Shown here piece by piece: positions 2,100-63,906 of a DNA stretch of 64,000 nucleotides. Below the pieces are notes generated by a model that saw nothing but the letters and a program-made list of their open reading frames with translations, had not been told where the DNA came from and did no database searches. The position numbers and the translations under genes are program-made. How positions within the stretch are numbered: the stretch's first letter is position 1; every line of letters begins with the position of its first letter. Source of the stretch: Sipunculus nudus (Eukaryota; Annelida; Sipuncula; Golfingiida; Sipunculidae); assembly GCA_026874595.1 (NCBI GenBank), contig CM049306.1:62874019-62938018 (forward strand), written 5' to 3'.

Positions 2100-3440
2100 T
2101 AGTTTTAGGCAGGTGGCTAGCGCCTGACGATATTGTGAAAGTTATAGGTTAGTTGGTTATCATCTGACGGTTAGAGGTGCGGACAGCATCACCCCCTGGT
2201 TGGGACCGGTCTAGTCAAAGGATGAGCGGTACGGTATTTTGTGTTAGCTGTCCTGTCCAGCCCAGACTAAAACTTTGGACCGGACTGGTCCATGCGGTCC
2301 GGTCCGCACATCTAATGCTGGTAGTTAAGGCAGGTGGCTAGCGTCTGACGTTATTCAGGAGGTTTTAGGCAGGTGGCTAGCGTATGCCGGTATTCAGGTA
2401 GATTTCTATGAAGTGGCCCGCGTATGACGGTAATCAGGAAGGTTTAGGCATGTGGTAAGGGTCTAATGACATTTAAGTAGTTTTAGGCAGGTGGCTAGCA
2501 TCTTGCGCGGTATACAGGTTGTTTTGGGCAGGTGGCTGGCATGTGAAGGTATTCAGATTGTTTTAGGCAAGTGACTAGCGTCTGACGGTATCCAGGTAGT
2601 TTAGGCAAGCGACTAGGATCTTATGGTATTCAGGTAGTTTTAGGCAGGTGGCTAGCGTGACCGTCTGACGGCATTCAGGTTGATTTATGCAGGTGGCTAG
2701 CGTCTGACGATATTCAGGTAGTTTTAGGTCGGTGGCTAGCGTCTGGCGGTATTCAGGATGTTTTGGGCAGGTTGTTAGCGTGTATGGGTATCCAGGTTGT
2801 TTTAGGCAGGTGGCTAGCATCTGACGGTATTCAGCTTGTTTCAGGCAGGTGGGTAGCGTATGACGGTATTCAGGTGGTTTTAGTCATCAGTCTAGCATCG
2901 GATGGTATTCAGGATGTGTTAGGCAAGTGGCAAGCGTATGGCGAGTTTTAGGTTGTTTTAATGCATGTGGCTAGCGTCTGACGGTTTTTTTTCAGGTTGT
3001 TTTAGGCATGTGGTTAGTTTCGGACGTTATATTAGTTGTTTTAGGCAGGTGGCTAGGGTAAGACGGTATTAAGTTTGATTCAGGCAGTCGGCTAGCGTAT
3101 GATGGTTTTCAGGTTGTTTTAGGCAGGTGGCTAGCGTATGACGGTATTCAGGCTGTTTTAGGCAGGCGGCTAGTTTCTGAAGGTATTCAGGTTGTTTCAG
3201 GCAGGTCGCTTGGGTGTGACGGTATTCTGGTTGTCTTGGACAGGTTGCTAGCGTATGACGGTGTTCAGGTTGTGTTAGGCAGGTGGCTATGGTCTGACAA
3301 TATTCAGGTAGTTTTAGGCAGATGGCTAGGATCTGACGGTATTAAGGTTGTCTTAGGCAGGTTGCTAGGGCTGACAGTATTCAGGTTGTCTTAGGCGGGT
3401 TGCTAGGGTCTGACGGTATTCAGGTAGTTTTAGGTAGGGA
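2100..3440. repeat. 39-bp minisatellite
   Basis: About 30 diverged direct copies of a 39-bp unit containing 'aggcaggtggctagcg' and 'tctgacggtattcagg' are visible. The array is interrupted at 2171-2315 by an unrelated foldback element. Short open frames within it are products of the repeat and not genes. A second degenerate repeat of about 50 bp ('attcttgcagtttcagtc', 'cttggcgactg') follows at 3470-3640. Confidence 0.9.
2171..2315. mobile_element. 145-bp MITE-like foldback element inside the minisatellite
   Basis: The ends TTAGAGGTGCGGAC and GTCCGCACATCTAA are inverted repeats with one mismatch in 14. The 39-bp unit is split at 'ctgacggt' and resumes with 'atgctggtagtt', which corresponds to 'attcaggtagtt', so the insertion falls cleanly inside one unit. 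The GAGGTGCG-type end resembles hAT MITEs, but an 8-bp target duplication is not clear. Confidence 0.6.
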
Positions 3441-19265: not shown

Positions 19266-19430
19266 AAGTTGATGAAAGACAATGCAACGAACCAAGGCTG
19301 AAGTGGTTTCTTTGCTAAATGCTTTCATCGAAATATACCTGCTTTCTTTTTATCTGGGAGAGTTGTCAATTTTGCATCAGACCTGCTTATTCCATGAAAA
19401 TTTACAGTACTTAAATAAAAAATTTAATAC

Positions 19431-20728
19431 TGTTACAGGTGCCTTTTTCTTGTGTGACACGGGCGTAACTCGTGTTTTGGCGCCCGTGTCTGTCCACGTA
19501 TTGCATTCTCTGTTTAATCCGTACTAGTTGAACTCTCGTTGTCATGCTGGGTTGGGGCTTTCTCGCCTGGTCGGGCCGGGACGAGGTCACCAGTGGACCC
19601 TGGTATGTAGAGGCACAGCGATGTTCTTCTAGATGATTCCTGTAACGTGTGTTTACTGTGTATTATGTTAGATCCTTTAGACTGTTCGAGAAGTGACAAA
19701 TTCTCGGGTTGGGGCAAGAAGTTATAAATAGGGGGGCTGTGTTTTAGAGCCGAGACAGAGGAGAGAATATTCCAGCGGACACAGACGTGTTTATTTCAGT
19801 TTGTGGGACCTGTCTGATTATCCAGTAATTTCAGGGATTCTTCTATTACTAACTCTACCCAATTTAATGCTGCCTGCCTCAAGTTTACTTTTTGGATTCT
19901 TACAAGAGCTTTAAATTGGGCTGTTATTCTCCGAGAGTATACATTTAAAGAACTTGTCGCTGTGGCGGTGATGTTATCCAGGTACTATGCACTTTGTTTA
20001 TTAGGCTGTGTGATTATATTGATTTGATGTTATACTGTTATTGTACTGTGTAATTATATTGATTTAGGGTACTGTAATGTTAGGGTTGTTTTAAGAATAA
20101 ATTATAGTTATTTGTTAACATTAATTCCTGAAATGCGTGTTTACTGTTGAGTAGGGTCCTTATAGACTGTTCGAGAAGTGGTAAATTCCCTGCTTTGGGT
20201 GTGAAGGTATATAAAGGGGCTGTTTTTTAGAACCAGAGGGCAGAGAGCAGAGAGCAGAGCAGATACCAGCGGACGTCAGAAGGGTGTGTCAGGACCTTAT
20301 CCGACGAATGCGGCAATTACAGAGTTTCAAGAACTTTTTCCTGGATTTTATACATTTGGACTTCAGTTTACTTTCTGTGTTGTTGCAAGAACTTTCTACT
20401 GGACTGTCATTCTCCGAGAGTTAACATTATCAAGGACTATCGTTGTGATGGTGTTGGTATCAAGGTACTGTACCATTATCTTTATGTGTGATTATATTGA
20501 CTTGTTACTATAACGCTGTTTTACTGTATAATTGTATTGATTTAGTGTATTGTATTGTTAGGGTTGTTTTAGGAATAAATTATAGTTAGTTGTCTACAAA
20601 AAACCACTGACTTCTTTATTCATTTCCCTAGACATTTTGCGCTGCCTACAGAATCTGTTTTTTTTATCTCCATCACAAAATTTGTGTTCATCACGCATAC
20701 GTGATCTGTTTATATTAGGTTCCGTAAC
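19431..20728 (+). repeat. 5' LTR with internal partial duplication
   Basis: It starts TGTTACAGG and ends CCGTAAC. TATAAATA at 19723-19730 and AATAAA at 20096-20101 fit promoter and poly(A) signals. From about 20121 the sequence re-enters the LTR near the point equivalent to 19634 ('attcctg.aa.g.gtgtttactgt'). It gives a second TATA (20208-20216) and a second AATAAA (20574-20579). The LTR is therefore 1298 bp against 758 bp for the 3' LTR, which also lacks about 73 bp present here. The second portion is clearly diverged from the first, suggesting recombination between sub-variants. Confidence 0.8.
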
Positions 20729-20735
20729 TTAAAAT

Positions 20736-20753
20736 TGTGGGCTCGTCTAGGAG
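20736..20753 (+). promoter_or_regulatory. primer-binding site, tRNA-Pro-like
   Basis: TGTGGGCTCGTCTAGGAG, 7 bp after the LTR, matches the well-known tRNA-Pro PBS (core GGGCTCGTC) at about 14 of 18 positions. It would prime minus-strand DNA synthesis. Confidence 0.6.
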
Positions 20754-21107
20754 GCGTAATAGTTTTGAAAATTTATTAGGCCTTGACCTGGACACGTTTT
20801 ATCATACATTGTTTACAAGATTACATACTGTTTACAAGTGCCGTCTAAATCCATAGAAGAATCCGTAGCTTGCGGGGTAAAAACCTCAGTTGATTCCTGC
20901 GAGTAATAATAAGGCTAGATCCTTTCAAGACTCCTGCGAGGACTATCCTTTAAATAAGGCTAAGTCCTTTTATGACTCTTGTGAGTGTATTTCAAATGAG
21001 GCCAGGTCCTCTTATGACAAACAGAGGAAAATTCCTCTGTTGACTCACATGAGGAGTTTGATTGTAAAAAGTATGTAGATTCCTTTAACGACTCTGAAAA
21101 AGAGTTT
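20754..21107 (+). other. retrotransposon leader, no gag
   Basis: About 350 bp separate the PBS from the protease. It holds three loose repeats reading N-KA(R/K)S-(F/S)-(Q/Y)-D, with no capsid homology or zinc knuckle. Gag has been lost or is too degraded to recognise. Confidence 0.5.
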
Positions 21108-21566
21108 ATGACTGACACAGTCAATGTCAGTTCTTTGTTTGATGAAGCTGAGGTAGTAGATTACTCTCCTGACTCTGAAATGGAGTTATTTGAGCCATTC
21201 ATACATGATGGTTTTGTATCACTTTCAAGTGAATTTTCATATCCTACCCCTATTAGAATTTTGAGGGACACTGGTTCAGGCCAGACTCTCGTGTTAGCAA
21301 ACACTTTGCCATTTTCTGATAGGTCTTTTACTGGTTCACATGCACTTGTTAATGGTGTGTTTTCAGACAGGCACACTTCAGTTCCGGTTCACAGTATCCA
21401 TCTTAAGTCAGATTTGATTTCTGGGAATATTACTGTGGGCATAAGAACTACTTTACCCTTTAAGGGAGTTCAGTTGCTACTAGGCAATGATGTTGCAGGT
21501 GACAAAGTACAGCCTGTACCAATAGTGACAGAAAAGCCGTCACTTAATCAGGACACTGATCCGTAA
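21108..21566 (+). pseudogene. retrotransposon aspartic protease region (PR)
   Basis: A 152-residue frame holds the retropepsin active-site motif (D-T-G-S around residues 54-57, within ILRDTGSGQ) and, about 70 residues on, LLLGNDVAG, the gypsy version of the C-terminal hydrophobic-G-N/R-D motif. A retropepsin would act as a dimer to cut the polyprotein. The frame itself is open, but gag is absent upstream and integrase is broken downstream, so it is part of a dead element. It lies just before integrase with no RT between, which is central to the unusual domain order. Confidence 0.75.
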
Positions 21567-21597
21567 AGTCAGGAAATCCCTGGTCTGTATCCTTCAT

Positions 21598-22967
21598 GTG
21601 CTGTTTCTAGATCTATGGCCAAGAAAAACACACATGAGGATATTGGTCCAGGTTATAATACTCATAGCATTTTCAAGGACAGAACTTATCACGGAACAGC
21701 ATAAGGACCTTGATATTTCATGTTTGTTTCCCAGGCCATTTTCTAAAGATGAACTGTCACAGAACCCAGTTTGTTTCTATGTTAAAAATGGAGTGCTTAT
21801 GCGTAAATGGCGACCACCTGATGTATGCGCTGATGATGAGTGGGCCATCAAACATCAAATAGTAATGCCAAAAAGCTTTTCGCAATGAAACTCTTAGCAT
21901 GGCACATGAAGCTCCTTTTTCTGGCCATTCAGGTATAAACATGCGAGATGGTAGGCAAGCCCAATCAGAATCCTCCTAAGGCCCCACTTACGCCTATTCC
22001 TGCTTTCGAGGAACCATTCAGTAGGATTATTGTTGACTGTGTTGGACCACTGCCCAAAACAAAATCTGGACATGAATACTTGCTGACAATTGTTTGCGCA
22101 TCTACCAGGTTCTCTAAGGCAATACCTTTGCGCAAAATTATTGCCTAAAGTGTTGTCAACGCTCTGACTATGTTTTTTTACAACTTTTGGATTACCAAAA
22201 TCCGTCCAGTCTGACCAAGGGTCTAATTTTATGTCTGGATTATTCCAGCAAGTTATGCTTGAGCTAGGTATGAAACAGTACAGCTCTTCGCCATACCATC
22301 CTGAAAGTCAGGGCGCCCTCGAGCGTTTTCCCAAGACATTAAAAAACCCGATCAGGACCTATTGCTATGACCCTCAGAAAGACTGGGATGAAGGAATCCA
22401 CCTATTGCTGTTGTTGTCAGAGAATCCTTTCAAGAGTCCTTGGGTTTCAGTCCCTTTGACCTAGTTTTCTTACATGGACCGCGAACTGAACTTCCATTGA
22501 AACTGCTTAAAGAAAAAAGAAAAGATTTTCGCAATAAACTAAACAATGCTTGTGAGATTGCAAAATCAAATCCTAAATCTGCACAAAGTAAAATGAAAAC
22601 AAATTATGGCAGGCACAGTGTAAGTAGGACGTTTGAGCCTGGTGTAAAGGTCCTTGCCTTACTTCCAATCCCTAGCAGACCTCTGTAAGCTAGGTATTTT
22701 GATCCTTACATTGTTGACAAGAAAGTCAGTGATTTAAATTACACACTGTTGACACCAGATAGACGTAAGAAGAAACAGCTGTGCCATATTAACATGTTGA
22801 AACCATATTACGACAGAAATAGCACATCAGATGTTGTACATAATGTTACTGCTGTGAATTGTATAAACACTGACCCTGACCCAGTTAAAATAGATACTGA
22901 TTGTAAGTGTGATGTAGACATTGAGTGTGTTACAGTACCATTAAAACAAGTGAACCATGGGTCATGA
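21598..22967 (+). pseudogene. retrotransposon integrase (IN), broken
   Basis: The N-terminal part (21598-21888, ending near WRPPDVCADDEW..MPKSF) shifts frame into the two-histidine half of an HHCC finger (HEAPFSGHSGI, about 21904-21936). A deletion then removes the CxxC half, and sequence resumes at VGKPNQ (21950). The core follows: first catalytic D in IIVDCVGPLPKTKSG, a stop near 22148, then the second D in SDQGSNF and the E in YHPESQGALERF. The C-terminal part has ALLPIPSRPL and a closing HINMLKPYY, typical of gypsy integrases. At least four frame breaks are visible. Integrase would insert the cDNA; this copy cannot encode one protein. Confidence 0.8.
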
Positions 22968-23059
22968 CGCTCAGCTGACTGGGAAGAGATTCGTAAAAGG
23001 AAATTTTATCATCTGAATGGTAGTATATACCCGTTCAACTGAAGCATCAAACAGATTAA

Positions 23060-24835
23060 CCAACAGGCCAAGATTGTGTCTGTATTTATATATGTCAAAA
23101 ATATAGAAAAGATGCGTAAACTATAAAAAATTACAGGTGGCTCCACCAGTCTGCAGAAACTAATAAAAACACATGGCCAATATCCATGCAAAGAATCATG
23201 GTGATCTCTGCATAAGTTGTTTAGATACTTCAGCTTTTGTATCAATTTTCCATTATTCTGAGGGATACTTCTGAGTCCTATAGCTTGAAGGATATACGTA
23301 ACAGAGACCTAATTTCAGGTTTCCACAGACACTTTTCATGGGCCTCCTTGTATTACAAGAATGAAGAATCTAGGTCCAGTTGTTACGATTTGTACCCTGT
23401 TGACAGATATCAACATTTTTAAAGGTCTCAAAAAATAGAGAAAAAAATTCATAAAAATTTGAAAAAAATAGCGGTGGCACACCCAGTCTGCAGAAACTGA
23501 TGGAACACCTCGTGATCAATATGTATGCCAAAAATCATGAACATCAGTGTTGTAGTTATCGAGATACTGCAGTTTTTGTATCAAATTTTTCATTATTCTT
23601 GGGGGTATTTTGGAGCCATACAGCTTAAAGGATATGGGTAACAGAGACCTAATTTCAGGTTTCCATGGAGACTTTTCATGAGTCTCCCTGTGTGTCAAGA
23701 ATGAAGATTCTTGGTCCAGTTGTTATGATTTGTACCCTGATAACAGACTCATATCTTTAAAGGTCTCAAAAATAGAGACAAAACTTCGTAAAAACACCCG
23801 AACAAATACAGATGGTGCCACCAGTCTGCAGAAACTGATGAAACATTCAATGATCAATATCCATGCAAACAATTATGGTGATCTCTGGATTAGTTGTTCA
23901 GATACTTCAGCTTTTGTATCAAATTTTCCATTATTCTGAGCTGTACTTTGGAGTGCCATAGCTCAAAGGATATGGGTAACAGAAACCTAATTTCAGGTTT
24001 CCAAGGAGACTTTTCATGGCTCTCCCTGTGTGTCAAGAATGAAGATTCTAGGTCCAGTCGTTACGATTTGTACCCTGTTGACAGATAGCTACATCCTTAA
24101 AGGTCTCAAAAATAGACAACAAAAAATTGTAAAAATTTGAGAGAAAAAAACAGGTGGCGCCACCAGTCTGCAGGAACTGATGGAACACCTCTTGATCAAT
24201 ATGTATGCTAAAAATCATGACCATCAGTGTTGTAGTTATTGAGATGTTGCAGGTTTTTTTATCCAATTTTCCATTATTCTGGGGGGGGGGGGTAATTGGG
24301 AGCCCCACAGCTCAAAGGATATGGGTAACAGAGACCTTATTTCTGGTTTCCATGGAGACTTTTCATAGGTCTCTCACTGTGTCAAGAATGAAGATTCTCG
24401 GTCCAGTCTTTACGATTTGTGCCCTGTTAACAGATGTTCACATTTTTAAAGGTCTCAAAAATAGAGAAAAAAATCTAAACAAATCGAAAAATACAGGTGG
24501 CGCCACCAGTCTGCAGGAACTGATGGAACATCTCATGATCAATATGTATGCCAAAAATCATGACCATCAGTGGTGCAGTTAATGAGATATTGAAGTTTTT
24601 GTATGAAATATTTGACTATTCTGGGGGGTACTTTTGGGCCCCATAGCTCGAAGGATATGGGTAACAGAGACCTCATTTCTGGTTTCCAAGGAGTTTTTTT
24701 ATGGACCTCTCAGAATGTCAAGTTACAAGTTTCTAGGTCCAGCGGTTACGATTTGTGCCAGGTTAACGGACGGACGGACGACGGGCAAAGGGTGATCGCT
24801 ATAGCTCAGATGACTAAGTCAGCTGAGCTAAAAAC
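23060..24835 (+). repeat. ~340-bp tandem array between integrase and RT
   Basis: Five diverged units are marked by 'ccaccagtctgca' at about 23145, 23482, 23820, 24162 and 24505, a spacing of 337-343 bp. Each carries 'tcaatatgtatgc.aaaatcatg', 'ttattctggggggta', 'aaaggatatgggtaacagag' and 'taggtccagt.gttacgattt'. The last unit ends in GGACGGACGGACGA, CAAAGGGTGATCGCT (24786-24800) and TAGCTCAG...CTGAGCTA (24802-24830, an inverted repeat). The same terminus heads another array at 53987. Probably a nested repeat element rather than retrotransposon coding sequence. Confidence 0.85.
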
Positions 24836-24865
24836 TCAGACGTGCTTTAAAACCTGGATGACAAA

Positions 24866-26156
24866 CGGTCACACCTTACCGCACAACAACAACAGGACCT
24901 CAAGAACTTGCTGCGGAATTATGAGCATTTGTTTAGTGACATTCCAACTCGAACTAGCATGTTGTGCCATGACGTCGGTGTTGGCAGAGCAGGCGCGGTC
25001 GAGCAGCGTCCTTGTAGACTGAAAGGCCCAGAAAGGCAAAGGTATCTACAGGATGAGATTCGGTATTTTATTGAACCTAGTAACAGTAACTGGAGTTCAC
25101 CGTGTATTCTTGTGCCAAAACCTGATGGAAGTTACCGTATGTGCACCGATTCCGAGGATCGATGATTGTATTGATAGAGTCCGTATCTCCAGATATGTTT
25201 CCAAGTTTGACTTGCTAAAAGGATTCTGGCAGCTTCGAGCGAAAGAAGTGTCCGCAGTTGTGACGCCGGAAAGACTGTACCAGTATAAAGTTATGCCGTT
25301 TGGCATAAAGAAGTCGCCACTCACGGTCCAGCGCCTCATCCATATGGTTGTCAAGGACATTCAGGGCTGCGACGCATATATCGCATATATCTCATCGTGT
25401 ACAGCGACACCTCGGAGAAACATCTGCGGATTCTTCGCGACCTCTTCGAAAGACTCGGTGAAGCACGTCTGACCGTCAACTTGGTAAAATCTTGGTTTTG
25501 GCATGCACTAGTAACATTTTTGGGTCATATTGTGGGGCAGGGTCCGGTAAAACCGGTTGATGCTGAGATGGGTGCTATATCTGCATTTCCTGGACCAGAA
25601 ATCAAAAAGCGAATGATGCGTTTTCTTGGTATGGTTTGGTACGACAGGAAGTTTTGTCCAAGTGTTTCTGCTGTGGTTGAACCTTTGACCAATTTGTTAA
25701 ATAGGAAACAAAGGTTTGTATGGAATGTTCGGTGTGAAAATGCGTTTCAGAATTTGGGAGCAATTTTGCAAAGTTCACCAGTTTTAGCAGCTCCAGACTT
25801 GTCTGTACCTTTTAGGTTATATGTAGATGCTGGTGATACTGCTGCTGGTGCTGTGTCGTTGCAAGGGGGCAGTGATGGCATAGATCATCAAATATGTTAT
25901 ATCTCGAGAAAGTTTAATGCAAACCAGAAAAACTACTCACTATTGAAAAAGAATGTTTGGCTTTGATTTTGGCATTGCAACATTTTGAAGTTTATGTTAC
26001 TCCATCAATCAAGCCTATAATTTTTTTTCAATGAGCATAATCCCCTCACGTTCATGAACAAGCTGAAGTGCGTTCTTACATGATTACAACCGTGAAATCA
26101 AACACATTAAAGGGAAGGACAATGAACTTGCTGATTGCTTATCGAGATGTTTGTGA
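24866..26156 (+). pseudogene. retrotransposon reverse transcriptase and RNase H (RT-RH), broken
   Basis: The RT entry region reads [20 protein letters not shown].. then [26 protein letters not shown] and, after a frameshift near 25145, FDLLKGFWQL and YKVMPFGIKKSP, all typical of Ty3/gypsy RT. The YxDD box is not intact: the position reads AYIAYI and the frame shifts again before LIVYSDTSEKHL. The connection (FLGHIVGQG, FLGMVWYDRKF) leads to RNase H (YVDAGDTAAGAV; a further frameshift precedes EKECLALILALQHF). The reading ends DNELADCLSRCL and stop (26154-26156). No integrase follows; only a hairpin, PPT and LTR do. The copy is inactive. Confidence 0.85.
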
Positions 26157-26238
26157 AATGTTGTGGACAGGATGTTTATGTAATGTTGTAAATAAGATGA
26201 TTTTTGAGATGTTGTAAAAATTTAGTGATTGTGATCGC

Positions 26239-26271
26239 AAAAAGAAAGTTTTCCAAGAAAACTTTCTTTTT
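26239..26271 (+). other. perfect 15-bp hairpin before the 3' LTR
   Basis: AAAAAGAAAGTTTTC, loop CAA, then GAAAACTTTCTTTTT. It lies between the pol stop and the PPT. Its role is unknown. Confidence 0.8.
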
Positions 26272-26275
26272 TCTT

Positions 26276-26288
26276 GCAGGAGAGGGAG
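26276..26288 (+). promoter_or_regulatory. polypurine tract
   Basis: GCAGGAGAGGGAG abuts the TG of the 3' LTR. A purine run here primes plus-strand synthesis in LTR elements. Confidence 0.75.
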
Positions 26289-27046
26289 TGTTACAGGTGC
26301 CCTTTTTATTGTGTGATAAAGGCGTAACTCGTGTTGTGGCGCCCGTGTCTGGCCGCGTATTGCATTCTCTGTTTAATCCGTACTGGTTGAGCTCTCGTTG
26401 TCATGCTGGCTTGGGGCTTTCTCGCCTGGCCGTGTGTTTACTGTGTATTATGTTAGACCCTTTCGACTGTTCGAGAAGTGGAAAATTCTTAGCTTGGGGC
26501 AAGAAGTTATAAATAGGGGGCTGTGTTTTAGAGCCGAAAGAGAGAGGAAAGAATATTCCAGCGGACACACAAACGTGTTTATGTCAGTTTGTGGGACCTG
26601 CCTGATTATCCAGTAATTTCAGGGATTCTACTATTACTAACTCTACCCAATTTAATGCTGCCTGTCTCAAATTTACTTTCTGGATTGTTACAAGAGCTTT
26701 ACATTGGACTGTTATTCTCCGAGAGTATACATTTAAAGAACTTGTCGCTGAGGCGGTGATGGTATCCAGGTACTGTGCACTTTGTTTATTAGGCTGTGTG
26801 ATTATATTGATTTGATGTTATACTGTTATTGTATTGTGTAATTGTATTGATTTAGTGTACTGTAATGCAAGGGTTGTTTTTAGAATAAATTATAGTTATT
26901 TGTTAACAAAAAACCACTGACTTCTTTATTTATTCCCCTAGACATTTCACGCTGCCTAGTGTTACAGAATCTGATTTTTTTTATCTCCATTACAAAATTT
27001 GTGTTCATCACGCATATGTGATCTGTTTATATTAGGTTCCGTAACA
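26289..27046 (+). repeat. 3' LTR (758 bp)
   Basis: TGTTACAGGTGCC to TTCCGTAACA. TATAAATA lies at 26508-26515 and AATAAA at 26884-26889. It is colinear with the 5' LTR apart from a ~73-bp deletion near 26429 and the absence of the 5' LTR's partial duplication. Confidence 0.9.
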
Positions 27047-29652
27047 ATACTGTTGGAATATATTTTTCACATTGGCAGCTATACGTTTCGCGTACAAGAG
27101 ACTTCAACGACATATGCATGTGTATACAAATAACGCATGTGTCTGTTAACATGCTTAGACTATACCCTCAACTGACTACACTAAATAAACATCGTGTTTC
27201 ACGATGTCGCCTGAGCTTCAATTAAAACAAAGCATCCTTCATTTAATTTCACGGTAGAATGCTTCTTTATACAATCGTTATATCTACGTTATTTCCCAAG
27301 CAATCAAGCTGTCGGACCTATGTTGTTTATCGAAAAAAAAAACTTCTCACTAAAAAATTCGTACACCCTGTATATGCTTCACGTCTCTTTCCGAAACTTA
27401 ATTTTTGTGTGATTTATGGAATAGAATAATATTTCTTTTTATGTTGAAATTTTGGGGGTAGGTGTTCGAGCTGAAGTGAACTTTATATCATATAAGTGAA
27501 ACACATGACAAACGTTCCTGCAAAAACCTTAGTATTAAATATGCGTCGTTTTGTTTCTATCAGCTCCTCATAAAAATATGCATCAGATAGAGCCGTATAT
27601 TTTCCACGGGAGCAGCTAGTGTTTATTAATACCTTCATGTAGTTTATAGAAATGAACATCCGGTACCGCCTACGTCAAAGGAAATGTTTCTTTATTAATG
27701 TGGCAGTGTGAAACGGGATACACCTGAAAGGGTGCATCTGTTTGAAAAGTTTTTTTTTCATTGGTTTGATTAAACAACAAAATCCATTTCGTGACTCGTA
27801 CGAAAAGGTTGATTAGCCCGAGGACATTAACAGCGCCCTTGTTTGATTTGTATGACGAGGATAATATTATGATTTTATCAGCTAGCTTTAGCTGTTATAT
27901 GTAATATAGATGGCTTTCGTGTTTTTCGAATCATTTTGCACCTGATTCTTTTGATGACATCAGCCACTATATCAAAATTGACCAACTTATAAAGTATGTC
28001 TTCCAAGGGAAAATTTATATATTTTTTCTTTTCCTCATAGTATTTCTTTTCAGCTAATTGATTTCTCTGCAGCTGGTTGGTTATATTTTTCCTGCCTTAG
28101 AGAGAGGGCATTGTTTGTCTTTTCAACTATATATTTGTATTTATAATGTTCATCGTTTATTAAACAAGATTGTTACAGCATGGCAGTCAATTTATCCTGT
28201 AATTGCTCCAGCCCATTTAACTTGTTCGGCGAGCCTTTTCTAAACTTATGAAATGAAGTATAAATACTTTGCCAACATGCTTATTACATATATATATTTG
28301 TATTTATATATTTATCATTCTATATATATATATGTATATATATATATATAAAGTAATTGAAGTATAATGTCTGAAATATAAAAAATATAACATAGAAGAA
28401 GGGAAATCTTAATTGTTTAGAGATTTTACAACACAGTGGGAATTGATTTTCTTTGCAAGAATTGAGAACTACGATTTCCAGCCGGAAGTAGTAAATAAGG
28501 ATCAAACAAACAAAGGAGGAAGGACTGGGCGTGGGAGCCCGTCATCCTTGTTATCCGTTTCTCCTGTTTGCTTTGACTCTCCAGGCTTTCCCTAAAAGTG
28601 GCTTTGACACGGCGCTACCCGAGGCAGATTGGTAACGACGTCTCCTTCACAATAAGCCAAACAGCATGTAAAGACCACAAAACCAAATCTTCCGGGAAGG
28701 TATTTACTATGGTAGGCCGATGGTTATGGGGCTTCACTTTGATGGTAAATTTTCTTGCAATACAACAGGACTGTCCATTCAGGCTGTGCAGAAAAACAGC
28801 CGACTTTATTGTAATTGTATCTTCTAACAATCCTTCCTATTTATTACGTGGTGTAGTCGGTAGTACCAATCAAGCGGAGCAGTAAAATGATCTCTTTCTT
28901 ATCGCCACTGATATGATATTGCTATGTCGCCGTTCTCACAGACGGCTATCAATGTAACGAGTTTTAATCTTGTCCAGGTTCTACACGAAAACTTCCAAAC
29001 AAAGCAGGCCTGCCAAATCACTCTTTTTTTATTAAAAGGTCACTTTTTTCAGGATTTCCTGAAAATGACGCTTTTACTCTTTTTTCACTCTTTTTTTTCA
29101 GCAGTAATTTTTCCCCTCTTTTTTTCCATTGAAAGAATTCCTATATAAAATATTTCTCTCCTGCTTTTTCAGTGTAGTTAGAATGAACTAGATAAAATCT
29201 ATCCCCAGTACTTTAATAATCAGCAAAAACTTTACATCTACAATTATTATGAATTTCTCTTGTAGGTCTAACTTTAGTGGAACACTCTGCATGCAGCGAC
29301 ACGCTCTGAGCACCACTGTTTAACGAAACCATTTTACAGCCTTTTTATTTTGACAGATTAATTCTACCCTTTATGATTATGACTCCTCATGGCAAGATAG
29401 CCGAATAATCTTTTATGATATTGCTCGTCTTCTTTTTGAATATATAAGCATCGTATATGACATTTGCCAAGAATGTACTGTTCTTTACGTAAGGTTTTAT
29501 TAAGTACGGGGTATATTTATATCAATGTGTGTCATTGCATACATATAGGAACTATTGCTTTCATCGTGATTAAGAGATAATCATATTAATACCTATTTGT
29601 CCAAACCTAGGATGTAACATATCCTTCCTTACGAATGAGTCTGTTTTGTCAG

Positions 29653-36387: not shown

Positions 36388-38124
36388 TCTATAAATCAAT
36401 AGCGTAAGGCGATTTTCGTAATTTTCCGTATCTCCTCTGATACCATCGTACGGATTACCGTGATTTTCCGTATCTCTTCTGATACCATCGTACGGCTTGC
36501 CGTAATTTTTTGTATCTCCTCTGATACCATCGTACGGATTGCCGTGATTTTCCGTATCTCCTCTGATACCATCGTACGGATTGCCGTGATTTTCCGTATC
36601 TCCTCTGATACCATCGGACGGATTGCCGTTATTTTCCATATCTCCTCTGATACCATCGTACGGATTGCCGTGATTTTCCGTATCTCCTCTGATACCATCG
36701 TACGGCTTGTCGTAATTTTCCGTATCTCCTCTGATACCATCGTACGGATTGCCGTGATTTTCCGTATCTCCTCTGATACCATCGGACGGATTGCCGTGAT
36801 TTTCGCTATACATATGCTCCTGGTTTGACCGAAGAGATTCCATACCATTTTTTTAACGGGGAAACAACACAGGGAGAACCGGGCGTGAAAATCAGACTGC
36901 AAAGGTCAAGAGTGTGTGACGACCAGTTTATTCATACAGTGGAGAAAAACTCTGTTGAAATACATGAAATGGGTTGTGTTAAGTTCACCGTTACTGTTCA
37001 ACAGACCGGTTCATTTACAGTGTTAAGCACCGTTATTGTTATTAATTTATTGTTCAACAGACCAGTTCATATTATAGTTTCTTAAAAAATTATATGAACA
37101 TTATATACCGTTGACATAAGAAATTCAACTGAGATTACATAGCGTGTGTGATGGCGGGGGTTTACTCCGGGGGCCCTATCTGGGTTTTGCGTACATTTCG
37201 CGGTCACCGGCCCGAAATAATCCCCATCAGCGATCCCTTCTCAAAAGGGGGATCTTTAAAAGAATGTATTTGCAGGCCCTTCCTGCGACCCCGCCCCCCC
37301 CCCCCCCCCCCCCCCCATCATATGACTTGATATGCTTGAGTGCACATCAACCGGGTCGCAGGAATCCGTGATGGCTATACAGTCGCACACGGTCTCACGA
37401 AGTCCAGGCCCTTCCATGGGCTGTAGGCCCACTAAGTAACAGATGTAAAGAAAATATTAACCAAATTCCCGTTGTGGTTCGTACGTACAGTGTGATGTGA
37501 ACACGTTTGCAGTGACACCACCAAAGTTGTAAACAACTTATACTGAATTTAAAAAAATGTTTTGAAAATCGAGATTTTTTCTCATTACTGCAGTTGCGAA
37601 TGAAAAATTACTGTAAAAATGTATATTTAATACGTTTATACTGGTATAAATTTGTTTCTTTTACATGCATGTGCCATCTTATTTTCAATCATGTTTATGT
37701 AATACTATTTTTAAAGACTTTTTATTTTTTAAGTCAGTATATATGCTTATAGGGTTTTAATCCATGCCATCATTGTTACTATTTTCACAAATAAAACTGA
37801 TATTTTGCATATTCTTCTAAGGTCTATTCCATGGACCGTTTATATTGTACGTATGTGGTACATGTGTAGGTGACTCTATGTTAAAGACCCCGACCACCTG
37901 TTAGCCACTGGTTTTTAAGGCGACGGTGTGCAACTGTACGCTGTTCTGAAACGTGTTCCGAAGGATTATTTTTCACAACAACATACATATAATGGATCTA
38001 TATATTAATAACGTAACGCGATTTGTGTGATTTTCCGTATCTCCGGATTTCGGGTTGATTTCTTATACCACCGTATGGATTGTAGTGTTCGCCCCTAATA
38101 GTGCATAGCACGGGTAATTGCTAG
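36388..38124 (+). mobile_element. Helitron-like non-autonomous element, copy B
   Basis: It begins TCTATAAATCAATAGCG after an A and ends TAATTGCTAG before a T. The hairpin GTGC-ata-GCAC (38101-38111) lies just upstream of CTAG (38121-38124). It is colinear with copy A over most of its length and carries the same second, internal TCTATATATTAATA terminus (37997; 10541 in copy A). Differences are the 42-bp array at 36400-36810, a different segment at 36840-37140, a C-run near 37290, and absence of copy A's nested MITE. No protein is encoded. Confidence 0.75.
36400..36810. repeat. 42-bp minisatellite inside Helitron copy B
   Basis: Nearly 10 copies of a 42-bp unit ('ttttccgtatctcctctgat', 'accatcgtacggattgccgt'), with 'gataccatcg' at 36439, 36481, 36523 and so on. 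Copy A has a single equivalent unit (9155-9220). Because 42 is a multiple of three, three frames stay open (reverse strand 36361-36843 and 36396-36902; forward 36460-36828). These are repeat artefacts. Confidence 0.95.
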
Positions 38125-41004: not shown

Positions 41005-41998
41005 TTGGGGAGGCGTTCGGTGCCTTTGACAGATGGAAATTTGGGAGGCGTTTGGTGCCTTTGTCGGATGGATATTGTTACGGAACCTAATATCAACAGA
41101 TCATGTAGTCGTGACGAGCACAAACCTTGTTACGGAGATAAAAAAATCAGATTCTGTAACACAAGGCAGTGTGAAATTTTTAGGGGACTGAATAAAGAGG
41201 TCAGTGTTTTTTGTTAACAAATAATTATAATTTATTCTTAAAACAAACCAAACATTACAAAACAATAAATCAATACAATTACATAGTATAACAACAGTAC
41301 AGCAGCAACTCAGTACAATTACACAGTATTAAATAAAGTATACAGCTAAATAATTAAGTCCTTTAAAGCATATAATCCAGATGAACAGTTCACATAAATC
41401 TTTTCAGAGAATAATAGTCCAATTCCATCACAAAATCAATTTGTTGTAATCCGAAAGTGAAGTTCTGGTAGTGATCCCAAAGGCAAACTGAAGTCTAAAA
41501 TTCGTTACAAATTTGAAGAAGATCTATAACTGCTGCAATTACGGGATAGGTCCACAAACTGACTCACACTCTTCCGTTTATTTCTCTCTCCTTTCTTTTT
41601 GGCTCTAAAACACAGCCCCCTATTTATAACTTTTCACCTCAAGCCGAGAACTTTCCATTTCACGAACAATCCAAAAGAACCCAACAATACATAATACACA
41701 CGCCCAAAGAACATACTAGAACAAAGATCGTGTTTCTACACGTCAGACCCAATACGTGTGCCGGTCCCAGCTCGCGCGTCTCCCATGGCAACGGACAATG
41801 CTAGCGCTTCACGGGCACATGTAAGACTGCTGCACACAATAAGAGAGATACCTGTAACAATATTGGGGAGGCGTTCGGTGCCTATGTCAGATGGATATTG
41901 GGGAGGCGTTTGGTGCCTTTGTCAGATGGATATTAGGAAGGCGTTTTGTGCCTTTGTCAGATAGACATTAGGAAAGTGTTTTGTGCCTTTGTCAATAG
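41005..41998. repeat. 35-bp minisatellite split by a solo LTR
   Basis: Units such as 'ggatattggggaggcgttcg' plus 'gtgcctttgtcagat' (35 bp) lie at about 41005-41075 and 41860-41998. The later units drift ('aggaaggcgttttgtgcc'). The solo LTR (41076-41859) sits inside the array. Confidence 0.85.
41076..41859 (-). mobile_element. solo LTR, same family as the 19.4-kb element (reverse)
   Basis: It reads TGTTACGGAACCTAATATC...ACCTGTAACA, the reverse complement of the LTR described at 26289-27046 at its ends. It is flanked by the 4-bp duplication ATAT (41072-41075, 41860-41863). Its TATA box is at 41621-41628 on the reverse strand. The central part is diverged from the full element's LTRs. It probably arose by LTR-LTR recombination. 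Confidence 0.9.
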
Positions 41999-43239: not shown

Positions 43240-44038
43240 CTTGCACTCGGACCCGGATGGTGTGGACCCGACTACATTACTGATGTGCATATCTTATATG
43301 AATTAATGTTAAACGCCTGTAATTTATCTGCAGCAGCCGCGAGTCAGCCCGGCCTGTGGGGAGGGGGGGGGGGGGGGCCTCGGATGGTGTGGACCCGACT
43401 ACATTACTGATGTGCATATCTTATATGAATTAATGCTAAACGCCTGTAATTTATCTGCAGCAGCCGCGAGTCAGCCCGGCCTGTGGGGCGGGGGGTTGGG
43501 GGGGGGGGGGGAGGGGACTCGGATGGTGTGGACCCGACTACATTACTGATGTGCATATCTTATATGAATTAATGCTAAACGCCTGTAATTTATCTGCAGC
43601 AGCCGCGAGTCAGCCCGGCCTGTGGGGGGGGGGGGGGGGGGGGGGGCCTCGGATGGTGTGGACCCGACTACATTACTGATGTGCATATCTTATATGAATT
43701 AATGCTAAACGCCTGTAATTTATCTGCAGCAGCCGCGAGTCAGCCCGGCCTGTGGGGCGGGGGGGGGGGGGGGGGGCCTCGGATGGTGTGGACCCGACTA
43801 CATTACTGATGTGCATATCTTATATGAATTAATGTTAAACGCCTGTAATTTATCTGCAGCAGCCGCGAGTCAGCCCGGCCTGTGGGGCGGGGGGTTGGGG
43901 GGGGGGGGGGGGGCTCGGATGGTGTGGACCCGACTACATTACTGATGTGCATATCTTATATGAATTAATGTTAAACGCCTGTAATTTACCTGCAGCAGCC
44001 GCGAGTCAGCCCGGCCTGTGGGGCGGGGGGGGGGGGGG
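43240..44038. repeat. ~128-142-bp tandem array with G-run spacers
   Basis: Six almost identical units begin 'cggatggtgtggacccgact', continue 'cattactgatgtgcatatct' and 'gcagcagccgcgagtcagcc', and end in 'cggcctgtggggcg' followed by a G-run of variable length (roughly 12-24 G, sometimes with TT). Unit starts are at about 43250, 43380, 43521, 43649, 43779 and 43917. The near-identity indicates recent amplification or homogenisation; the G-runs vary most. Confidence 0.95.
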
Positions 44039-45985: not shown

Positions 45986-47275
45986 TAAGGGATATAAGGG
46001 ACATATTTGACGGGGATACAAGGAACATATATGACGGGGATATAAGGAACATATATGACGGGGATATAAGGAACATATATGACGGGGATATAAGGAACAT
46101 ATATGACGGGGATATAAGTTACATATATGGCGGGGATACAAAGAACATATATGACGGGGATATAAGGTACATATATAACGGGGAAATAAGGTACATTTAT
46201 GGCGGGGATATAAGGTACATATATGAGGGGATATAAGGAACATATAAGACAGGGATATAAGGTACATATATGATGGGGATATAAGGAACATATAAGACAG
46301 GGATATAAGGTGCATATATGACGGGGATATAAGGTACATATATGACGGGGATATAAGGTACATATATGATGGGGATATAAGGAACATATAAGACAGGGAT
46401 ATAAGGTACATTATATGGCGGGGATTTAAGGTGTATATATGACGGAGATATAAGATACAAATATAACGGGGATATAAGGTGCATATATGACAGGGATATA
46501 AGGAACATATAAGACAGGGATATAAGGTGCATATATGACGGCGATATAAGGTACATATATGACGGGGATATAAGGTACATATATGACGGGGATATAAGGA
46601 ACATATAAGACAGGGATATAAGGTACATATATAACGGGGAAATAAGGTACATTTATGACAGGGATATAAGGTACATGTATGACGGGAATATAAGGTGCCT
46701 ATATGACGGCGATATAAGGTACAAATATGACGGGGATATAAGGAACATATAAGACAGGGATATAAGGTACATATATGACGGGGATATAAGGAACATATAA
46801 GACAGGGATATAAGGTGCATATATGACGGGGATATTAGGGTACATATATGACAGGGATATAAGGTACATATATGATGGGGATTTAAGGTGCATATATGAC
46901 GGAGATATAAGATACAAATATAACGGGGATATAAGGTGCATATATGACAGGGATATAAGGAACATATAAGACAGGGATATAAGGTGCATATATGACGGGG
47001 ATATAAGGTACATATATGACGGGGATATAAGGTACATATATGACGGGGATATAAGGAACATATAAGACAGGGATATAAGGTACATATATGACGGGGATTT
47101 AAGGTGTATATATGACGGGGATATAAGGGACATATAAGACGGAGATATAAGATACAAATATAACGGGGATATAAGGTGCATATATGACAGGGATATAAGG
47201 AACATATAAGACAGGGATATAAAGTGCATATATGACGGGGATATAAGGTACATATGTGACGGGGATATAAGGTGC
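45986..47275. repeat. 24-bp minisatellite (~53 copies)
   Basis: The unit resembles 'gacggggatataaggtacat' plus 'atat'. Variants (aacat/tacat/tgcat; gacagg/gacggg) form longer repeats: the marker 'gggatttaagg' recurs at 46421, 46878 and 47094, spaced 457 and 216 bp. As 24 is a multiple of three, long open frames of Y-M-(F/Y/H)-L-I-S-P-S type appear on the reverse strand; they are artefacts. Confidence 0.95.
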
Positions 47276-56245: not shown

Positions 56246-56539
56246 AGATGTTGGAGTAATCGACCGACCGGACCAGCATCCATATCTAATTGTTCACCGT
56301 GGTAACATAATTCTTAAACAGCGCAGTTACAAAAGGACCTTGCAGAGAATTGGTGTCCCTTCTGACATTTATACCAATACCTCTTCTTTAACACATGTCG
56401 GGTTGATTTGCAAGTTACGGATTGCCTTATATTTTTTTACTTTTCGACCTCACGGACAACGTTAAGCATTCCAGTTTAGGTTAACTAACTGCAGATCTAT
56501 CCGTATGATTAGATTACATACATTAAAAGCCACACAACA
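56230..56539 (+). promoter_or_regulatory. probable 3' splice site and 5' UTR of the GPCR
   Basis: A pyrimidine tract ending TTTTCAG (AG at 56246-56247) is a strong acceptor, giving a likely 292-base untranslated exon part before the ATG. The first bases after it, ATG TTG GAG TAA, form a three-codon upstream ORF that could damp translation. Splicing is inferred. Confidence 0.45.
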
Positions 56540-57652
56540 ATGACACTAAATGTTACCTTAGATGAACTTGGAGGATATTTGCGGTTTTCCAGTCACTGGG
56601 ATTTGGTTCGAGCTGATACAGCACTTCAACCCCATGTGGAACAACTACTACTCAGGAACAAGACTCTAACACCCGAACTCCGCATACTCCGGGATGTCTC
56701 GTGGTGGCTCAACTCAGCGTGGACTCCGGTATTTGTTGGAATTGGCATTCTGGGAAATTTAGCTTGCCTTGTAGGCCTCGTGAGGTCTACTCTTCGGCAC
56801 GTGTCACCGGGGCACTACCTTGCAGCCCGCGCAGGCGCAGACAGCGCCTTCCTGTTAACCCTTCTCTTTGTATGGATAGCGGATTTTGAGATCGCACACA
56901 AACATTTTTACCTGACTGTTGGTTGGTGTCAGTTTGTTTCCTACGGGAGCCACCTTAGTACTTTTCTAGCAACCTGGGTGACGGTGGCTTTATTGATAGA
57001 TCGCGTGATATTCGTGCGTTATCCTGAAAAAAGAAAAGTAATGTGTACAGTTTTTCGATCCCGCGCGGTAATCGTTGGTCTACTAATCTTGGATATGGTG
57101 GTTTGTCTGAACATCAGCCTGACGGAGGGGGTGGTAGAGTACGACGATTGGTACATGTGTTCACCAATGCCAGAATTTATGAAGGTCATGAGAGTGTTAG
57201 AGAAGCTGGACACTATTGTCAATTTCATACTGCCCTACACTGCCGTACTTGTTATATGTATCTTACTTCGTAGCAACTTGTGCAGTGCTCAGTCACGTGG
57301 GGGCTCACGTGACGAGGACTGTCCAATCATCTTAGACATGGAAATGACGCGCACGTCCATTTTGGTAGGCATGTTTTATGTATTTTTCACTCTCCCGTCA
57401 TACGTACTTAAGCTCCATCACTTGGTGAGAGGAGCCACGGATGAAAACGAAATGGTACCGCCTTCTGTGCTGACTTTACAGCAGATCTTGAAGTTCCCTA
57501 TGTATTTAGGATACGCGTCCACCGGCATTCTTATTGTCCTCAGCAACAGCAAACTGCGTGGGACAATGTGTCACTTAATATGCTGTTGTTCTTTTCATGG
57601 AAAATCCATAGAAAACAGAGATTCGGAAGAAATACCAATGGCTACGACATAA
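56540..57652 (+). CDS. class A (rhodopsin-like) G protein-coupled receptor, probable peptide receptor
   Basis: An intact single-exon frame of 370 residues. The ATG has A at -3 and precedes an extracellular N-terminus with sequons N4 and N40. Seven membrane segments fall at about 62-82 (GILGNLACL), 93-114 (D101 = 2.50), 128-156, 175-193, 224-244 (P232 = 5.50), 272-294 (FFTLPSY, P286 = 6.50) and 314-335. C130 and C207 should form the TM3-ECL2 disulphide. Helix 3 ends D-R-V (154-156) in place of DRY. There is no NPxxY in helix 7 (it reads STGILIVLSN) and no tryptophan in helix 4. C344 and C348-350 are probable palmitoylation sites. It should sit in the plasma membrane and signal through heterotrimeric G proteins. 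The layout resembles the expanded, orphan FMRFamide/TRH-receptor-like groups of molluscs; the ligand cannot be told. Confidence 0.9.
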   Translation: MTLNVTLDELGGYLRFSSHWDLVRADTALQPHVEQLLLRNKTLTPELRILRDVSWWLNSAWTPVFVGIGILGNLACLVGLVRSTLRHVSPGHYLAARAGADSAFLLTLLFVWIADFEIAHKHFYLTVGWCQFVSYGSHLSTFLATWVTVALLIDRVIFVRYPEKRKVMCTVFRSRAVIVGLLILDMVVCLNISLTEGVVEYDDWYMCSPMPEFMKVMRVLEKLDTIVNFILPYTAVLVICILLRSNLCSAQSRGGSRDEDCPIILDMEMTRTSILVGMFYVFFTLPSYVLKLHHLVRGATDENEMVPPSVLTLQQILKFPMYLGYASTGILIVLSNSKLRGTMCHLICCCSFHGKSIENRDSEEIPMATT

Positions 57653-63010: not shown

Positions 63011-63014
<4 letters not shown>

Positions 63015-63906
63015 ACGGAACCTAATATCAACAGATCATGTTGTCATGACGAGCATAATTTTGTTATTGAGATAAAAAAAAAAACAGATTCTGTAACACT
63101 CGGCAGCGAGAAATGTCTAGGGGAATGAATAAAGAAGTCAGTGTTTTTTGTTAACAAATAATTATAATTTATTCTTAGAACAACCCTAACCCTAACAACC
63201 CTATAATACACTAAATCAATACAGTTATACAGTATAAAAACAGTACAACAGCAAATCAATACAATTTCACAGTATAATAAATAAAGTGTACAGTACCTAG
63301 ATACCACCACTGTCACAGCGACAACAATTCCTTTAAAGCATATAATCAAGATGAACAGTTCACAAAAATCTTCTCAGAGAATAACAGTCCAGTTCAATCA
63401 CAAAATCAATTTTTTGTAATCCAAAAGTGAAGCTCTGATAGTGATCCCAAAGGCAAAATGAAGACTGATTAAAATCCGTTACAAATTCGAAGAAGGTCTA
63501 AAACTGCCGCACTTATTTGAAAAGGTCCACAAACTGACTTACACTCTTCTGTGTCCGCTGGAATATATCTCTCCTCTCTCCTCCCTCTTTAAAACACAGC
63601 CCCTTATTTAAAACTTTTCACCTCAAGCCGAGAGCTTTCCAATTCCCGAACAATCCAAAGAACCCAACAATACACACGTTACAGGAAACACCTAGTACAA
63701 GGAACGCTGTGTTTTTTCATATCAGGGTTCCCACGTGGGCCGGCCCGGCTCGGCCAGGCGAGAAAGCCCCAGACTAGCATGACCGCTGTGTTTACACGTC
63801 AGACCCAACCCGTGTGCCGGGCTATGCCACCATAGCAACGGACAATGCTAGCGCTGCACATACACATGTAAGACTGCTGCATACAATAAAAGAGACATTT
63901 GTAACA
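63011..63906 (-). mobile_element. solo LTR, same family (reverse), 896 bp
   Basis: TGTTACGGAACCTAATATC...CATTTGTAACA, flanked by ATAT on both sides (63007-63010, 63907-63910; the left copy lies inside the TA run). It keeps the 'ccgggctc/cgaggcgagaaag'-type segment deleted from the 3' LTR at 26289. The central part differs from both LTRs of the full element, indicating a sub-variant. Confidence 0.9.

Follow-up and report, generated by a model that had tools for sequence, protein, structure and literature searches.

An integrase-first Ty3/gypsy retrotransposon family with a SCAN-type Gag, very probably of the Gmr1-like kind

Introduction

The question raised by this locus is whether a Ty3/gypsy retrotransposon whose integrase (IN) lies upstream of its reverse transcriptase (RT) was built in that order or merely appears so in one damaged copy. 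The window analyzed is a whole stretch of 64,000 nucleotides (G000:C1:62874019-62938018), and the element lies on its plus strand. A sequence-only reading had placed it at 21108-26156 and described gypsy-type motifs in the copia-type order protease (PR), IN, RT, RNase H (RH). That order was borne out, as was an ATAC target duplication bracketing the whole; the extent was corrected to 19431-27046, and a deletion in gag and a foreign insertion, both missed by that reading, were added. Judging from sequence features, we put at about 88% the probability that the element is one decayed member of a high-copy, Gmr1-like Ty3/gypsy family with an IN-first pol and a SCAN-type Gag. From 5' to 3' it comprises a long terminal repeat (LTR), primer binding site, gag remnant, PR, IN, RT, RNase H, stop, polypurine tract and LTR:

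19427..19430, no strand: 5' target duplication ATAC, from sequence comparison of the element flanks
19431..20729, plus: 5' LTR, ~1.3 kb, containing two diverged tandem segments (19646-20120 / 20137-20591)
20736..20753, plus: primer binding site, 6 nt past the 5' LTR end, a stretch shared by other copies
20754..21221, plus: gag remnant, with ~1.3 kb deleted between 20836 and 20874
21222..21566, plus: protease region, D-T-G at 21267-21275, placed by motif and position; the region is conserved in other copies
21736..22946, plus: integrase in several broken frames (H2C2 half, rve core, p58_C C-terminal domain)
22947..24828, no strand: inserted repetitive element of a different kind with 338-bp tandem units, lying between TAAAA at 22942-22946 and 24829-24833
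24834..25720, plus: reverse transcriptase, broken frames (Pfam RVT_1, 7.4e-9)
25721..26156, plus: RNase H and pol stop, TGA 26154-26156 (Pfam RT_RNaseH_2, 3.8e-18)
26276..26288, plus: polypurine tract, abutting the 3' LTR (from 26289), with a similar tract in other copies
26289..27046, plus: 3' LTR, 758 bp
27047..27050, no strand: 3' target duplication ATAC, from sequence comparison of the element flanks

Integrase precedes reverse transcriptase across the family

The genome searched was an assembly of 1.4265 Gb in 153 contigs. The RT-RNase H piece gave 40 matches from 1658 first-look candidates and an IN piece gave 42 from 1677, with scoring limited in either search to the best 40 candidates. 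These figures are therefore not copy numbers, although the family is a high-copy one.

Domain order was read at 29 other places, which were selected by RT-RNase H alone and taken with 1.5-kb flanks. In 27 of them, IN preceded RT on the same strand; no place had IN downstream, and none had it on the opposite strand. With L033 overlapping L034, and 11.5 kb of a single contig separating L032 from L039, independent places number slightly fewer than 29. The sequence-only reading was to fall if intact family members here carried IN downstream; the counts instead uphold it, together with its view that this is one element and not two juxtaposed insertions. The RNase H end follows RT in 28/29 places, and a 3' LTR match is present in 25/29 (none in L023, L027, L033 and L034).

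A second sample consisted of 20 stretches of 9.2 kb around copies of the same set and hence is not independent of the 29. By a strict rule, IN lay upstream of RT in 17 of these, or in 18 when L060 was read by hand, and PR lay upstream of IN in 14. LTR pairs longer than 580 bp were present in 10/20 stretches and were 91.0-96.8% identical. Ten copies were examined for target duplications, and five of the six with resolvable ends had exact 4-bp duplications. L060 (G000:C15:45894300-45903500) is a tandem array with shared LTRs, reading RT-RH-LTR-gag-PR-IN, a rearranged stretch, and IN-RT-RH-LTR-gag. Its seeming case of IN downstream of RT is a product of this array, inside which the order is IN-RT-RH-LTR-gag-PR-IN-RT.

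In the window copy, IN and RT are separated by 1.9 kb, the greater part of it a 338-bp repeat present in 4.8 units. The corresponding site was empty and uninterrupted in all eight copies compared. Most IN matches across the genome end at query position 777-782, which is the same boundary, so that family similarity stops at ~22946. Because the site is uninterrupted in those eight copies and the IN matches end at the boundary, the junction of IN and RT is an original feature, which the insertion divided later. The distance from the end of the IN match to the RT piece was 516-529 bp in 15/15 other copies that matched both pieces at length, and 2325 bp in the window copy. A candidate continuation of pol coding beyond 22965 towards RT was rejected, since the empty site assigns this stretch to the insertion. 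Near the ends of the insertion lies a 12-bp terminal inverted repeat, and L022 and L023 contain matches to portions of the inserted sequence.

Gypsy-type Pol domains and a SCAN-type Gag

Pfam analysis of the window copy identified gypsy-type domains in RT, RNase H and IN. The C-terminal part of IN matched Integrase_p58_C over the cut-off (22689-22967, 4e-9), which we take to be a domain of gypsy/retroviral type. Comparison of RT-RNase H with solved structures returned 13 matches. The second was Ty3-G; the first, named only reverse transcriptase/ribonuclease H, presumably also is Ty3, and none of the 13 bears the name Ty1 or copia. The pol pieces had no second convincing match elsewhere within the window. 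RNase H is followed by the stop, the purine tract and then the 3' LTR, as the sequence-only reading had described. A fold predicted for the PR region from the single sequence had a mean predicted local distance difference test score of 39.8 and was left unused.

The nature of Gag was read from other copies. The gag region of L068 matched the Pfam SCAN domain (PF02023) at 1.6e-12, with 47.5 bits against a cut-off of 27. Eight further copies, chosen for a stop-free matching stretch, scored 26.7-48.6 bits, and only L061 (26.7) fell under the cut-off, so that SCAN was over it in 8/9 tested copies in all. The SCAN stretch was found in 16/20 loci; it was not found in L050, L057, L065 or L067, nor in the window copy. 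Similarity to the vertebrate SCAN domain spans ~75 residues; unlike that domain, which sits in host zinc-finger genes, the one described here sits in a retrotransposon Gag. Among solved structures, the best match of the SCAN piece was ZNF24, at a nonsignificant E value of 0.28; we assume this entry to be a SCAN domain protein. SCAN and PR share one uninterrupted reading frame in one copy.

Emerson and Thomas (2011) are said to be the original source for the descent of SCAN from Gmr1-like Gag. Passages of several reviews likewise trace SCAN to the Gag of Gmr1-like gypsy elements (PMC4592553, PMC3424704, PMC7231272, PMC8143547).

Probable assignment to the Gmr1-like elements

Gmr1 of Atlantic cod and its relatives were reportedly described by Butler et al. 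(2001) and by Goodwin and Poulter (2002). The present family resembles Gmr1-like elements in its gypsy-type RT and IN, in having IN upstream of RT and in its SCAN-type Gag. IN lies upstream in the window copy as well as in the 27 places above; the RVT_1, RT_RNaseH_2 and Integrase_p58_C matches, with Ty3 among the best solved relatives, are gypsy-type; and SCAN, in the passages of the literature that mention it, is a shared trait of the group rather than part of its original definition. Conventional Ty3/gypsy elements (Mag, CsRN1 and Steamer type) carry IN 3' of RNase H, an arrangement found in 0/29 places. Ty1/copia elements share the order PR-IN-RT-RH but differ in RT and IN, the profiles here being gypsy-type and the best named solved relative being Ty3. 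Because IN-first order and SCAN-type capsid agree, membership in the Gmr1-like group is very likely. The kinship proposed by the sequence-only reading thus gains support from order and Gag; the support does not extend to a tree of RT or IN with named clades.

Several observations weigh against this assignment and the order on which it draws. The assignment is made from order and capsid instead of an RT or IN tree with named clades, and the order counts cover this family alone, without a conventional gypsy family from this genome as a positive control. No IN was within reach of the 1.5-kb flanks in L040 and L044, and among the 20 long stretches L065 and L067 were without IN. L058 has resolvable ends, but its duplication agrees at only 3/4 bases. 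Within the window copy, PR had no Pfam match at E<=10, the Integrase_H2C2 half (21866-21976) was under the cut-off at E 0.025, and rve (22168-22464, 5.3e-6) scored 27.1 bits against a cut-off of 32.6. The G+C content of the N-terminal RT segment (24833-25470) is 0.476, versus 0.405 for IN and 0.395 for RNase H. Finally, IN and RT distances among 16 copies gave a Mantel r of 0.70 (19/2000 permutations), which fell to 0.18 (459/2000) when the window copy was removed; because the correlation depends on the window copy, it is silent on joint descent.

Gmr1-like elements are an unusual but known kind, and most likely this family is a member. IN-first gypsy elements are a known exception to the pol order that separates gypsy from copia, and the domain order is remarked on in a passage of PMC2774666. 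Pufferfish Gmr families, as summarized in part of PMC11117352, have a joint Gag-Pol, measure 6.1-6.5 kb and carry LTRs of 337-518 bp. The single frame from SCAN through PR in one copy here is comparable to the joint Gag-Pol; LTR-to-LTR blocks in nine copies here span 6.0-7.8 kb, and the LTRs, at ~770-800 bp, are longer.

The sequence-only reading had held that a mollusc host would extend or support a wider distribution of a clade described in deuterostomes; protostome Gmr1-like elements are already in print. Four such elements were reported from crustaceans in 2013 and billed as the first in protostomes (PMC3587641), and the annelid element LGF3 was assigned to Gmr1 in 2021, according to a passage of PMC8220671. 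GyRex4 and GyRex5 with their crustacean relatives, and LGF3, are protostome elements that their authors assigned to Gmr1; the present family would join them if its host is a protostome. For GyRex4 and GyRex5, RT/RH and IN are known as separate fragments whose order is unread, whereas order and Gag were read here in many copies. Part of an annelid survey states that the Gmr1 clade was not found in the survey's own data (PMC8556966).

Database searches added little. The RT-RNase H query found no relatives in public genome-contig or viral-contig collections, and the IN pattern had no match in the viral-contig collection. A degenerate RT pattern matched 17 stretches in prokaryote-labelled records and a single viral contig, which was judged phage-like by its open reading frames and was rejected as a relative. 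None of these searches yielded a named animal retrotransposon.

Host and alternative readings

If the host is a protostome, a family readable for order and capsid in many copies would help to date both the IN rearrangement and the SCAN-type capsid, the source of vertebrate transcription-factor domains. A more specific proposal, that the host is a mollusc and that this large, integrase-first family with a SCAN-type capsid is the first Gmr1-like one recorded there, has in our estimate slightly less than an even chance. No report of Gmr1-like elements in a mollusc was recognized in the open-licence literature, as judged by titles, abstract openings and passages, and with no repeat database included in the search. 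Were the proposal true, a SCAN-bearing Gag would be part of the stock of Gmr1-like elements shared by bilaterians, and there would be a protostome outgroup for the origin of vertebrate SCAN genes. It is unlikely, by comparison, that the same element sits in a deuterostome host, in which case the taxonomic point would be ordinary; Gmr1-like elements are recorded from frogs in a passage of PMC4131045. What speaks against a deuterostome are impressions, not tests: repeat style, genome size and the number of large contigs suggest a mollusc.

Less probable again is a lineage of gypsy elements that lies outside Gmr1, such as one of the MolGy clades (defined by RT/RNase H alone), and in which IN moved forward independently. 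In favor of it, a mollusc survey distributes 989 mollusc Gypsy sequences over 21 clades, and its table does not name Gmr1 (PMC6238403). What speaks against it is the SCAN-type Gag, a trait that the review passages cited above tie to Gmr1-like elements, because a move of IN alone would not bring SCAN. That deletions in a conventional PR-RT-RH-IN element or tandem pair produced an apparent IN-first order in one copy is barely credible: the window copy is heavily deleted and one tandem array of LTR-sharing elements is present in this genome, but the identical order recurs in 27/29 other places with the conventional order in 0/29, the L060 array itself reads IN first, and the IN-RT spacing is constant.

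Terminal repeats, mobility and state of the copy

Both LTRs of the element start with TGTTAC, and the 3' LTR ends with GTAACA. The end of the 5' LTR was placed via alignment to the 3' LTR and to other copies. The two LTRs are identical at 703/748 aligned bases (94%) in three collinear blocks. The 5' LTR reaches ~1.3 kb because it holds a diverged second copy of a 475-bp segment (79% alike) and 72 bp that are absent from the 3' LTR. This would fit either the loss of one unit from a two-unit LTR at the 3' end or a recombinant origin of the 5' LTR. The single segment of the 3' LTR is 94% identical to the first tandem segment of the 5' LTR and 79% identical to the second, and the LTR tails are 95.5% alike. 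The ATAC words flanking the element would match by chance in 0.55% of draws of two random 4-bp words from the window.

Past the 5' LTR, 8/9 copies compared share this primer-site-like stretch; the site presumably is of the tRNA-Pro type. Just 5' of the polypurine tract, a minus-strand self-match reveals a perfect-to-near inverted repeat (hairpin) at 26239-26271.

By analogy, we infer that the family moves like other LTR retrotransposons. The LTR would drive genomic RNA, and reverse transcription would be primed by a host tRNA. The SCAN-type capsid domain may aid particle formation, PR would cleave the Gag-Pol chain, and RT-RNase H would make the DNA. Integrase would be freed from the middle of Pol and would insert the DNA at cuts staggered by 4 bp. 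The central place of IN would leave RNase H as the last part of the polyprotein. The window copy is dead and unable to move: it has lost most of gag, its IN and RT are disrupted, and another repetitive element lies between these two.

Other features of the window

Two solo LTRs of the same group share termini with the element:

41076..41859, minus: solo LTR, with ATAT at both sides
63011..63906, minus: solo LTR, with ATAT at both sides

These ATAT duplications are weaker evidence than ATAC, because both solo LTRs sit in AT-rich flanks. Scans of the window with Rfam and for tRNA genes each gave 0 matches. An open frame of 379 codons at 56513-57649 (plus strand) encodes a rhodopsin-family seven-transmembrane domain (PF00001, 4.8e-11). 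Long tandem-repeat arrays occupy 2328-3438 (39-bp unit), 36417-36804 (42 bp), 43249-44038 (~130 bp) and 45989-47273 (24 bp).

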